Shown here: piece after piece, positions 20,061 through 24,378 of the stretch
Position numbering within the stretch: the first letter of the stretch is position 1
How the letters are laid out: each line of letters starts with the position of its first letter
Source of the DNA: Halorussus limi
GTDB taxonomy: Archaea; Halobacteriota; Halobacteria; Halobacteriales; Haladaptataceae
NCBI RefSeq assembly: GCF_023238205.1
Contig: NZ_CP096659.1
Location: 2,125,626 to 2,189,625 of the forward strand
DNA: 64,000 bases
Direction: 5' to 3'
Program-made: the position numbers and the translations under genes
The notes under the pieces: generated by a model
What the model saw: the letters and a program-made list of their open reading frames with translations, nothing else
What the model was told of the DNA's origin: nothing
The model's database searches: none

Positions 20061-20552
20061 TCACAACCCCTCCAGCGAGCGCAACTTCTGTTCGACCGCG
20101 GCCGGTGCGGCGCTCGGCCCGTCTCGGACTCGGTGGTCCGGAATCAGGAGCGGCGCGGGGTTCTCGTCGAGCGCGGTCCGGACCAGATCCAGGTCCTCCT
20201 CGTCGGTGTGGTCGATGCCGCTGGTCATCCGGGTCAGCGTCTCGACGTTCACCTGGTCGCCGTAGGGAATTCCGCGGACGGACTCCAGCACGCGGCGCTT
20301 GTAGGTCGGAACCGTGAGCGCGACCACCACGTCCGAGAAGTCGTCGTCCTCGATGCCGTCGAGGTAGTCGAAGATGCGGTCGAGCAGGTCGTGGTCCTCG
20401 GCGGCCTCCTCGTCGGGAACCTCCGGGAACGAGACGCTGAGGACCCGACCGCTCGCGGTCCCGAGTTGGACGTATCGGTCCAGATACGACGACTCGCGCG
20501 CGAAGATGCCAGTGACGCCGTCGCCGTCGAGTGCGTCGCCAATGTCGTCCAT
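20061..20552 (-). CDS. MGMT/ATL-like protein lacking the catalytic cysteine
   Basis: 163 residues. The C-terminal half follows the O6-alkylguanine-DNA alkyltransferase pattern: VPTYKRRVLESVRGIPYGDQ (the helix-turn-helix entry and the P-x-G block), then NPAPLLIPDHRV and a terminal KLRSLEGL. In true MGMT the active site reads PCHR; here it is PDHR, with Asp139 in place of the methyl-accepting Cys. Alkyltransferase-like proteins with PWHR bind alkylated DNA and recruit nucleotide excision repair, so a DNA-lesion sensor is plausible. ATG 20552 was preferred over an upstream TTG (20612). Divergent from trpC with a shared promoter. Confidence 0.8.
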   Translation of the reverse strand: MDDIGDALDGDGVTGIFARESSYLDRYVQLGTASGRVLSVSFPEVPDEEAAEDHDLLDRIFDYLDGIEDDDFSDVVVALTVPTYKRRVLESVRGIPYGDQVNVETLTRMTSGIDHTDEEDLDLVRTALDENPAPLLIPDHRVRDGPSAAPAAVEQKLRSLEGL

Positions 20553-20613
20553 GTCGCCCGATTCGGGCGGTCCGGACTTGAAGATTCCGCGCACGCGACG
20601 GACCCAGCGCAAG

Positions 20614-20644
20614 TCTTATGTACAATTCCGTCCGTTGGTGTACA
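20614..20644 (+). promoter_or_regulatory. trpC promoter with two TGTACA boxes
   Basis: TCTTATGT (20614-20621) is a TATA-like box 30 bases before the trpC ATG. Two identical palindromes TGTACA lie at 20619-20624 and 20639-20644, exactly 20 bases apart; the first overlaps the TATA box and the second ends three bases before the ATG. TGTACA is the TRP-box consensus bound by TrpY in Methanothermobacter. On the minus strand the same DNA offers a box (ACATAAGAC) to the MGMT-like gene. Confidence 0.6.
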
Positions 20645-20647
20645 ACG

Positions 20648-21451
20648 ATGAACGACAGCGACGAACTCGCGCCCGCAGTCGCCGCCATCCTGCGGTCCGC
20701 CGAGGCCCGCGGTGACCCCGACAGGGGGCCGGTCTCGGTGGACGCGCGGTCGCTCCCCGCGGCGCTCGCAGACGCCGAGGCAGACGGGCGCGCGCCAGTC
20801 ATCGCGGAAGTGAAGCCGACGAGTCCGACCACGGAGGGGACCCGCGAGGAGGACCCCGTGGCGCTCGCCGAGGCGATGGTCGAGGGCGGGGCGGCCGCCC
20901 TCTCGGTCCTCACCGAACCCGACCACTTCGGCGGGTCGCCCGAGAACCTGCGTCGAATCCGGGAGGCGGTGGACGTGCCCGTCCTCCGGAAGGACTTCGT
21001 ACTGCGCGAGGCCCAACTCGACACGGTGAGAGCCGACGCCGTCCTGCTCATCGCCCGGTTCGTGGACGACCTGTCGGGACTGGTCGCGGCCGCGAACGAG
21101 CGCGGGTTCCAACCGCTCGTGGAGGTCCACGACCGCGAGGAACTGCGGGCGGCCCTCGACGCCGGGGCCGAAATCGTCGGCGTCAACAATCGCGACTTGG
21201 CCCGACTGGAGGTGGACCTCGAAACCTTCGAGAGCGTCGCGCCCGAAGCGCCCGACGACGTGACGTTGGTCGCGGAGAGCGGTATCGGCGCGCCCGCCGA
21301 CGCCCGCCGGATGGTCGAGGCGGGCGCCGACGGCCTGCTGATAGGGAGCGCGATTATGGACGGCGTTTCGGCGGCCGACGACTCCGAGAGTCGAGGGGAC
21401 GACCCCCTCAGCAACGTAACCGAGAACACGCGGAGACTGACACGAGCATGA
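20648..21451 (+). CDS. trpC: Indole-3-glycerol-phosphate synthase
   Basis: 267-residue TIM barrel that closes the indole ring in tryptophan synthesis. The conserved lysines are in [11 protein letters not shown] and [13 protein letters not shown] near residue 216 and LLIGSAIM near the end form the phosphate-binding loops. ATG 20648 gives a leaderless transcript from the TATA box at 20614-20621; an ATG-like frame opening at 20618 lies inside that box and is rejected. It is the first gene of trpCBA, with the operator-like TGTACA pair across its promoter. Confidence 0.94.
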
Positions 21452-21467
21452 CGACGGTGACACAGAC

Positions 21468-22706
21468 ATGAGCAGCGAATCGAAGTTCGGCGAGTACGGC
21501 GGCCAGTACGTCCCCGAGGCGCTGATGCCCGCCATCGAGGAGTTGACAGACGCGTACGAGCGCTACGTCCTCGACAACGAGGACGGGTTCATGGACGAGT
21601 TCCGACAGCGTTTGCGGGACTTCGGCGGGCGGCCGACGCCGCTCCAGCGCGCGGACCGCCTGAGCGAGCGCTACGACCGGGAGGTCTACCTGAAGCGCGA
21701 GGACCTGCTCCACGGCGGCGCCCACAAGTTGAACAACGCGCTCGGCCAAGTCCTGCTGGCCAAGTACATGGGAAAGGAGCGCATCGTCGCCGAGACCGGC
21801 GCGGGCCAGCACGGCACCGCGACAGCGATGGCCTGCGCGCACCTCGACGTGGACTGCGAAATCTACATGGGCCGGACCGACATCAACCGCCAGCGGCCCA
21901 ACGTCTTCCGGATGCGCATCCACGACGCCGAGGTGAACCCGGTGGACATCGGGTCGGGCACGCTCAAGGAGGCCATCAACGAGACGATGCGCGACTGGGC
22001 GACCAACGTCGAGGACACCCACTACGTCATCGGGTCGGTCGTGGGTCCGCACCCGTTCCCCCGCATGGTCCGAGACTTCCAGTCGGTCATCTCCGAGGAG
22101 GCCCGCGACCAGATTCGGGCGAAGGCGGGGCGACTCCCTGACAGCGTGGTCGCCTGCGCCGGCGGCGGGTCGAACACGATGGGCGCGTTCCACGAGTTCG
22201 TCGGCGACGGGGACGTGGACCTCGTGGCCGTGGAGGCCGGCGGGTCGGGCCTCGCCATCGACGAGGAGGAGGAACTCGCGCCCCACTCGGCGTCGCTCTC
22301 GACGGGCGACGACGGCGTCCTCCACGGCGCGCGCACCAAACTCCTCCAGAGTCGGGACGGCCAGATTCTCGAATCCCACAGCGTGAGCGCTGGCCTCGAC
22401 TACTCGGGGGTCGGCCCGGAACTGGCGCATCTCGCCGACGAGGGCCGGGTGACGCCGGTCAACGTCGGCGACGACGCCGCGCTGGAGGCCTTCCACCGAC
22501 TCTCGAAGACGGAGGGCATCATCCCCGCGCTCGAATCCAGTCACGCGCTGGCGTATCTGGAGGAACATCCCGACGAACTGGGCGACCTCGTAGTCGTCAA
22601 CGTCTCGGGGCGGGGCGACAAGGACCTCGACACGGTCATCGAGGAGAGCGCCAGGCGGAATCTCGACGCCGCGCCGACGATGGAGGTGTTCGACGGTGAG
22701 CAGTGA
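21468..22706 (+). CDS. trpB: Tryptophan synthase beta chain
   Basis: 412 residues, PLP enzyme that joins indole and serine. The PLP Lys is Lys87 in [12 protein letters not shown], exactly the numbering of the reference enzyme. [12 protein letters not shown], the Gly-rich phosphate cup [12 protein letters not shown], and [12 protein letters not shown] are all present, placing it in the TrpB1 class that works with TrpA. It follows trpC by 16 bases and overlaps the trpA GTG start by 11 bases. Confidence 0.96.
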
Positions 22707-23556
22707 CGGCGCGGGCGGAGCGGACGAGAGCGCGACCGAGAGCGACGTCGAGGCGGCCTTCGCCGACGGACCGGCGCTGCTCTCCTACGTCGTGGCGGGC
22801 GACCCGGACGCCGAATCGACCGCGGAGTACGTCCGGGCGCTGGCCCGCGGCGGGGCCGACGTAATCGAACTCGGCCTGCCGTTCTCCGAACCCATCGCGG
22901 AGGGGCCGACCATCCAGCAGGCCATCCGCCGGGCGCTCGACGCCGGGATGACGCCCGACCGCTACTTCGACCTCGCGGCGGAGTTGAGCGAGGAGGTGGA
23001 CGTCCCGCTGGTCTGCATGACGTACTACAATCTGATATACCAGTACGGGTCCGAGGAGGGGCCCGAACCCTTCGTGGCGGCCGCCGCCGAGGCGGGCATC
23101 TCGGGTCTCATCGTCCCGGACCTGCCGGTGGACGAGAGCGCCCCGCTGAAGGCGGCCTGCGAGGACCACGGTCTCGATCTCGTGTTCATCGTCGCGCCGA
23201 CGACGACCGACGAGCGACTCGGGCGGATGCTCGACCGTGCGAGCGGGTTCGTCTACGTGCAGGGGCGACTCGGCACGACCGGCGCGCGCTCGGACGTGAG
23301 CAGCGAGACCCACGGAAGCCTCGACCGCCTCGCCGAAACCGACCTGCCGAAGGCGGTCGGGTTCGGCATCAGCGAGCGGGAACACGCCAGAGAAATCGTC
23401 GCGGGCGGCGCTGACGGCGTCGTCGTCGGGAGCGAGTTCGTGGACATCGTAGCGTCCGGGGAGAACGTCGCCGACCGACTCGAAGCCAAGGCGCGCGAAC
23501 TCAAGCAGGGGGCGCTCGACGGCGCGACAGAAGTACCGGAACCGGAAGGCAAATAA
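22696..23556 (+). CDS. trpA: Tryptophan synthase alpha chain
   Basis: 286-residue TIM barrel that cleaves indole-3-glycerol phosphate. The general acid/base Glu is Glu58 in [10 protein letters not shown]. The second catalytic residue, Asp60 in the bacterial enzyme (LADGPTIQ), is replaced by Glu69 in IAEGPTIQ, at the same spacing of 11 residues. [12 protein letters not shown] replaces the usual loop before the phosphate site, and GFGISERE follows. GTG start inside the end of trpB implies coupling. The N-terminal ~15 residues are an acidic extension. Confidence 0.94.
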
Positions 23557-23583: not shown

Positions 23584-24378
23584 ATGGACGTAGGAACTGC
23601 GGCACGACTCGAACGCATCGGCACAGACGGGAAACACGTAATCGTCCCGATGGACCACGGCATCACCCTCGGCGCGGTGAAGGGACTGGTGGACATCGAA
23701 TCGACCATCGACGCGGTGACGCGCGGCGGCGCGGACGCGGTCCTGACCCAGAAGGGCATCGCGCCGCGGGTCCACGACAACAAGAACGGCGCGGGCTACG
23801 TCGTCCACCTCAACGCCTCGACCTCCATCGGCCCGGACAACAACGACAAGCGCCTGACCGGCACCGTCACGGAAGCGGTCCGGGCGGGCGCGGACGCGGT
23901 CTCGTTCCACATCAACGTCGGGAGCAAGTACGAGCGCGAGCAGATGGCACAACTGGCCGAACTCACCGACGAGGCCGACGAGTACGGGATGCCCGTGCTG
24001 GCGATGGCCTACGCCCGCGGGCCGGGCGTGGACGAACACGACGCCGAGAGTCTGGGCCACGCCGTCCGCCTCGCCGAGGAAGTCGGCTGTGACGTGGTCA
24101 AGACCGGCTACAGCGGCGACGCCGAGAGCTTCGAGCGCGTCGTGGAATCGACCCGACTCCCGGTCGTCATCGCCGGCGGCGAACCGGCGGGCGACCGCGC
24201 GACCCTCGACGCGGTCCGCGGTGCGATGGACGCGGGCGCGGCGGGCGTCTCGATGGGTCGGTCGGTGTTCCAACACGACGACCCCGAAGCGATTACGCGG
24301 GCGGTGACGTCGGTGGTCCACGACGGGTCTTCGGCCGAGGACGCGCTCCGCGAGGCCGGACTGGCCGTCGAAGCCTGA
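23584..24378 (+). CDS. 2-amino-3,7-dideoxy-D-threo-hept-6-ulosonate (ADH) synthase
   Basis: 264 residues, class I aldolase family of archaea. VPMDHGITLGAVKGL near residue 20 and the Schiff-base Lys173 in VVKTGYSGD are diagnostic. ADH synthase performs the first step of the archaeal alternative route to 3-dehydroquinate, which replaces DAHP synthase. Linkage to trpCBA (27 bases downstream of trpA) supports this over a fructose-bisphosphate aldolase role. The partner enzyme, dehydroquinate synthase II, is not in the window; aroE is at 32277. Confidence 0.88.
   Translation: MDVGTAARLERIGTDGKHVIVPMDHGITLGAVKGLVDIESTIDAVTRGGADAVLTQKGIAPRVHDNKNGAGYVVHLNASTSIGPDNNDKRLTGTVTEAVRAGADAVSFHINVGSKYEREQMAQLAELTDEADEYGMPVLAMAYARGPGVDEHDAESLGHAVRLAEEVGCDVVKTGYSGDAESFERVVESTRLPVVIAGGEPAGDRATLDAVRGAMDAGAAGVSMGRSVFQHDDPEAITRAVTSVVHDGSSAEDALREAGLAVEA

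Follow-up and report, generated by a model that had tools for sequence, protein, structure and literature searches.

The trpC operon and its promoter

The window analysed here, a stretch of haloarchaeal DNA of 64 kb, carries on its forward strand trpC (20648..21451), assigned as indole-3-glycerol-phosphate synthase from its translation and from a match to Pfam IGPS (231.5 bits, cutoff 27), followed on the same strand by the open reading frames of trpB (21468..22706) and trpA (22696..23556), encoding the beta and alpha subunits of tryptophan synthase, each of which recovered its namesake in other archaea. The next forward open reading frame (23584..24378) matches the methanogen gene for 2-amino-3,7-dideoxy-D-threo-hept-6-ulosonate synthase, an aroA'-type aldolase, and is probably the last gene of a trpCBA-aroA' operon. 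The corresponding genes of H. salinarum, trpCBA-OE1472F, form a single operon (PMC4162585).

Two copies of the palindrome TGTACA, both within 5'-CGCAAGTCTTATGTACAATTCCGTCCGTTGGTGTACAACGATG, lie ahead of trpC on the forward strand, at 20619..20624 and 20639..20644. They stand 20 bp apart, centre to centre, one on the TATA element and the other just before the start codon, exactly as described in a first-pass annotation of this DNA. Between them, exactly 10 bp from each, is a degenerate half site, CGTCCG (20629..20634, forward strand), recognisable from the consensus [AC]GTnC[AG] of a matrix built on 65 promoters. The trpC operator is thus a three-box array in 10-bp steps. The two-turn spacing read by the annotation stands, but the array that it described was incomplete: the phase is 10 bp, with three boxes at trpC and four at trpD. 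Two elements had been missed, namely the degenerate middle box and a second array before trpD. TGTACA is the published TRP-box consensus of the Methanothermobacter regulator TrpY.

The core promoter of trpC (20608..20622, forward strand) consists of a CGCAAG element and a TATA-like CTTATGTA (20615-20622), the right half of which is box 1; GCAAGnCTTA is near-invariant in the 65 promoters. We infer from their location, some 28 nt upstream of the ATG, that CGCAAG and CTTATGTA serve as BRE and TATA, respectively. Box 3 ends 3 nt before the ATG (20648). Haloarchaeal transcripts mostly lack a leader (72% in Haloferax; PMC4983044), which agrees with a trpC transcript starting at or just before the ATG.

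The gene divergent from trpC (20061-20552, reverse strand), annotated as MGMT-like, reads PDHR in place of the catalytic PCHR of O6-alkylguanine transferases, which suggests an alkyltransferase-like protein devoid of the cysteine. The PDHR motif was found in 60 of the 62 trpC neighbours in which the motif was recovered, and a homologue of the gene occurs at 111 of 132 trpC loci. The annotation had also proposed that the boxes affect this gene. We found no support for such an effect, given that 67 nt separate the ATG of the gene (20552) from box 1, that an AT-poor promoter region of its own lies in between, and that the array has its position fixed with respect to trpC. No regulator gene recurs near trpC or trpD in the class; only the alkyltransferase-like divergent gene does. 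A DUF7839 helix-turn-helix (HTH) protein encoded directly upstream of the trpD array in one haloarchaeon (G286) was considered as a candidate regulator and rejected, because a close relative (G218) has a PII-like gene at that place and the two homologues in the present genome are unlinked to trp.

Rarity and conservation of the trpC array

Taken singly, TGTACA is unremarkable, with three occurrences in the window against 1.9 expected. As a pair separated by 12-16 nt, the word has a single occurrence in the whole 4.62 Mb genome, which holds no copy of TGTACA-N14-TGTACA with one mismatch. Copies with two mismatches numbered 26, against 21 in the control, and are thus mostly noise, the one before trpD alone being meaningful. 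Of 292 haloarchaeal genomes, 116 contain the exact N14 pair, usually once per genome, and one contains the reversed pattern, used as a control. The first 30 loci with an exact pair comprised 27 at trpC, one at trpD and two elsewhere. Thirty genomes devoid of the exact pair showed it at the same place with one (n = 22), two (n = 7) or four (n = 1) mismatches over the 12 box bases, compared to a best score of usually only five to seven mismatches in random 95-nt windows from the same loci.

Overall, 65 haloarchaeal trpC promoters were seen to have the array in the same position, no more than two of the 12 box bases being changed in 64 of them. Their joint matrix reads GCAAGnCTTA-TGTACA-nAtn-[AC]GTnC[AG]-T[TC][AG][AG]-TGTACA-nnR-ATG. 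Conservation extends to the degenerate middle box, in which G, T and C are kept in 63, 60 and 65 of the 65 promoters, respectively, and which reads AGTACA in G286. A scan of 84,980 prokaryote genomes for CTTW-TGTACA-N14-TGTACA-NNR-ATG yielded 90 stretches; the 80 listed comprised 76 archaeal stretches at trpC (two of them assigned to trpC by N-terminus or contig edge only) and four chance matches in bacteria. Genera with the pattern include Haloferax, Halobacterium, Halorubrum, Natrinema and Halococcus, and the site was in the same position in every haloarchaeal genus checked. The paired boxes are not there by chance: the pair is kept before trpC across the class, is unique in its own genome and is almost confined to trp operons, which speaks for the annotation on the two points, conservation in relatives and rarity elsewhere, on which it had made its reading depend.

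Eight genomes have a second exact pair, located at trpD in one (G286), possibly before a 2-isopropylmalate-synthase-like gene in another (G047, L092), and without common theme in the rest. The two exact pairs of G286, a deep-branching haloarchaeon, are located before trpD and, in place of the usual site upstream of trpC, between trpC and trpB. The gene near the pair in G047 resembles 2-isopropylmalate or citramalate synthase, a single case that may be due to chance. A contig of another genome (G195:C55, L005) displays nine TGTACA words in 8-12 bp steps within simple-repeat-like DNA away from trp genes. Finally, two genomes of one family (G118, L079; G150, L084) share an almost identical element, TGTACAGGGTCGTCG..CCTGTACACGGTCA, in which TGTACA recurs several times and which apparently has no trp connection; a resolvase-like open reading frame is found beside it in L084.

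A second array before trpDFEG

The trpDFEG genes form an operon separate from that of trpC. The best two-mismatch copy of the pair in the present genome (G000, C1:435033-435058) lies 13 nt upstream of trpD, and across families the trpD promoter has the form CGACAnGCTTAAGnnGA-TGTACG-nnTT-TGTACA-TyGT-AAnnCG-AAnn-CGTACA-TyGGTG, i.e., four half sites at 10-bp intervals that immediately follow the TATA element. This four-box array could be made out in the majority of 30 loci, drawn from at least five families. Given the usual distance from TATA to start, the trpD transcript would begin between boxes 2 and 3. The annotation had suggested looking for paired boxes upstream of trpC and of trpDFEG; arrays are kept at both operons. 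The third half site at trpD always reads AAnnCG instead of TGTACA and is nonetheless strictly conserved; AA comes next and GGTG further on. This half site may also serve as an initiator or leader element.

The arrays at trpC and at trpD were combined into a position-specific, sequence-only model, which was then applied to 44 haloarchaeal genomes. It returned 52 rows at E<=0.5, every one of them at trp operons, the less evident rows having been verified individually (one was placed through its distance from trpE, and one is the reverse strand of another). No other target of the array was detected at this threshold in the 44 genomes. Within the sensitivity of the model, the haloarchaeal targets are thus the two trp operons only; weaker further targets are possible, because the trpD site of the present genome (G000) itself falls below the E<=0.5 threshold.

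TGTACA arrays in other Halobacteriota

TGTACA-like boxes are also found ahead of the first trp gene in other Halobacteriota. When boxes with at least five of six matches to TGTACA were counted in 12 such promoters, nine pairs had a lag of 10 bp, five a lag of 20 and two a lag of 30, the other lags from 6 to 42 accounting together for five pairs. In 48 such genomes, exact matches to TGTACAN4TGTACA precede trpD, trpC, trpB2, aroA', the first gene of the aromatic pathway, and, in one genome, two further genes described below; the remaining matches look like chance. The annotation had regarded the boxes in front of haloarchaeal trpCBA as an independent appearance, a view that is not supported, because phased TGTACA arrays mark trp promoters across the Halobacteriota. 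Comparison of the promoters suggests, most simply, one ancestral operator type common to haloarchaea and methanogens.

In one methanogen (G299, L126), three TGTACA boxes at offsets 0, 10 and 30 precede trpB2, identified by a match to NCBIfam TrpB-like (706.9 bits). trpB2 is likewise a target of TrpY in Methanothermobacter, where further assembly is needed at that promoter. In a Methanocella-like genome (G326, L138 and L127), TGTACA arrays precede the gene for a small hydrophobic protein without library match and that for an energy-coupling-factor ATPase, respectively; the two are candidates for a tryptophan uptake system.

A TrpY-family protein in haloarchaea

The present genome encodes a 167-aa TrpY-family HTH-ACT protein (G000, C1:1492079-1492582, reverse strand) which matches TrpY_fam NF053754 with 244 bits over residues 2-164 (curated cutoff 180) and, at its C-terminal end, the Pfam ACT domain with 30.9 bits (cutoff 27). 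By curated cutoff and ACT domain, it is a member of the TrpY family. Its putative N-terminal HTH region has no Pfam match, though it is clearly alignable and conserved; in a relative from family f18, the region yields a weak HTH_11 match of 13.2 bits, below cutoff. No solved structure was found for the family. The search for TrpY homologues that the annotation had advised returned a curated family member in all 292 haloarchaea, 291 of them over cutoff and nearly always as a single copy, and in 145 of 148 Halobacteriota. The annotation's central proposal, that a TrpY-like regulator acts on the TGTACA boxes, thereby gains comparative support from boxes at both trp operons combined with a universal TrpY-family gene, although the presence of TrpY singles out nothing by itself because genes of this family are near universal.

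Family members were compared in the putative recognition region of the HTH. Haloarchaea, Methanosarcinales and family f19, all of them users of TGTACA, share VDRRVVD[AS]TT. Archaeoglobus-like family f15 has VDRKVV(I/V)xAI there instead, and TGTACA is absent from the two of its trp promoters that were examined. The HTH region also differs in f18, in which no clear TGTACA array was detected despite adjacency to trp: its 173-aa HTH-ACT gene (TrpY_fam NF053754) lies head-to-head with trpCDFEG. Family f30, in contrast, has TGTACA boxes, yet a somewhat different helix. The sequence of the helix thus appears to track the use of TGTACA, as a correlation over few lineages into which f30 fits poorly.

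A tryptophan at residue 2 is typical of TrpY, and is found in all 22 aligned members from outside the haloarchaea. In the present protein and in nearly all haloarchaea this residue is phenylalanine, the tryptophan being retained in a deep haloarchaeon (G021); W2 is not a criterion of the NF053754 model. The gene, moreover, is located some 650 kb from trpC on the chromosome, unlinked to trp, and no TGTACA was detected in its promoter in the loci inspected around it.

A model for tryptophan control and competing explanations

The closest known system is that of Methanothermobacter, in which TrpY binds TRP boxes and represses the trp operon in the presence of tryptophan (PMC6737238). Work on TrpY has up to now centred on a single methanogen. 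The likeness to M. thermautotrophicus extends to the word TGTACA over a trp promoter, the trp operon as target, the boxes before trpB2 in methanogen G299 and a regulator from the same curated HTH-ACT family. The methanogen trpY gene is arranged head-to-head with the trp operon (PMC6737238), as it is in f18. Unlike M. thermautotrophicus, haloarchaea have two separate trp operons, a regulator gene unlinked to either, a first trpC box fused to the TATA element and, except in G021, no W2; unlike the autoregulated trpY of Methanothermobacter, their gene lacks a box in its own promoter. The unlinked gene, the box-free promoter and the loss of W2 count against TrpY as the reader of the arrays. The absence of adjacency, autoregulation and W2 would not weaken the claim of a TrpY-like function.

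We consider it probable that the boxes are the operator of trpCBA-aroA' within an ancient Trp regulon of haloarchaea and methanogens, and that a TrpY-family HTH-ACT protein reads them. According to this model, tryptophan, when plentiful, would bind the ACT domain of TrpY, and the Trp-loaded protein would assemble along the half sites, whose 10-bp phase puts them all on the same side of the helix. At trpC, where box 1 has bases in common with the TATA element and where box 3 lies just before the presumed leaderless start, the complex would keep out both TBP and RNA polymerase; at trpDFEG, it would exclude RNA polymerase from an array that sits just downstream of TATA, over the expected start. 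When tryptophan is scarce, the complex would leave and both operons would be expressed together. Binding of TrpY to the array, its oligomerisation, tryptophan as ligand and repression as outcome are predictions of this model. In H. salinarum deprived of aromatic amino acids, all seven trp genes and OE1472F are induced, the regulator responsible not having been established (PMC4162585). A statement in PMC13147458, citing Large et al. 2007, describes the native trpCBA promoter of Haloferax as not tightly regulated, which counts against a tryptophan switch.

A fuller history, to which we give only a slight preference, would have an ancestral Trp regulon, older than the split between haloarchaea and Methanosarcina- or Methanocella-like lineages, in which TrpY oligomerised on a 10-bp ladder, and which in haloarchaea shrank to two operons, with box 1 fused to TATA, TBP and TrpY competing for it, the regulator gene unlinked, and both W2 and, judging by the promoter, autoregulation lost.

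Should the array be a genuine Trp operator, it might still be read by another protein, such as Lrp-family LrpA2 (trh1), TrpY controlling something else. We view this as unlikely, even though there is precedent for TrpY-family paralogues with other roles in Thermococcus kodakarensis, whose TK1227, a homologue 42% identical to the Methanothermobacter protein, reportedly does not control the trp operon, that task falling to Tar (TK0271) at a site of the form TGGACA-N8-TGTCCA (PMC6737238). The case of TK1227 weighs against TrpY as the haloarchaeal reader. Lrp, LrpA1 and LrpA2 are, in addition, amino-acid-linked regulators of these very organisms, and LrpA2, which responds to missing aromatic amino acids with a 14.9-fold induction in H. 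salinarum, has been proposed as a regulator of the pathway (PMC4162585). Yet Trp genes of methanogens carry this word in the same phase, and TrpY_fam occurs across these lineages, such that one regulator common to all of them is the simpler explanation. Lrp/AsnC proteins belong to a different family from TrpY; no report of a TGTACA array for them was found in the publications consulted, and a Halobacterium Lrp study is silent on trp genes and LrpA2.

Less probable still is binding of the boxes by an activator, or a TrpY that activates at low tryptophan instead of acting as a Trp-dependent repressor. Activation of this kind is known in Archaea, the T. kodakarensis Tar protein activating the trp and aro operons (PMC6737238), but the positions of box 1 on TATA and of box 3 before the expected start are those fitting steric repression, whereas activators in Archaea are as a rule located upstream of TATA/BRE. 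The overlap of box 1 with the TATA-like element, together with the general conservation of haloarchaeal core promoters, might also suggest that nothing more than an extended TATA and a proximal element is being conserved, with no dedicated regulator. This reading is highly improbable, in that the pattern is almost confined to trp operons in whole genomes, the word recurs before trpD at other distances from TATA and start codon, and methanogens with other core promoters use the same word in the same 10-bp phase.

The TrpY-family protein thus remains our preferred reader. A 2019 study expressly assigned no function to the branch of TrpY homologues found in haloarchaea (PMC6737238), and no earlier printed mention of the boxes was found in the open-access literature. 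On the comparative evidence, TrpY control very probably reaches an entire class for which no regulator had been established, and the geometry of the array is defined. The data join a universal putative regulator of tryptophan synthesis to an operator at a fixed position, one that can be explained as a helically phased array and that belongs to a rare example of an archaeal regulon traceable across a whole phylum. Haloferax research makes wide use of trp markers and of promoters inducible by tryptophan, so that knowledge of the switch matters for experiments in this genus; the operator is found in both Haloferax and Halobacterium, model genera in which deletion and reporter tests are routine.
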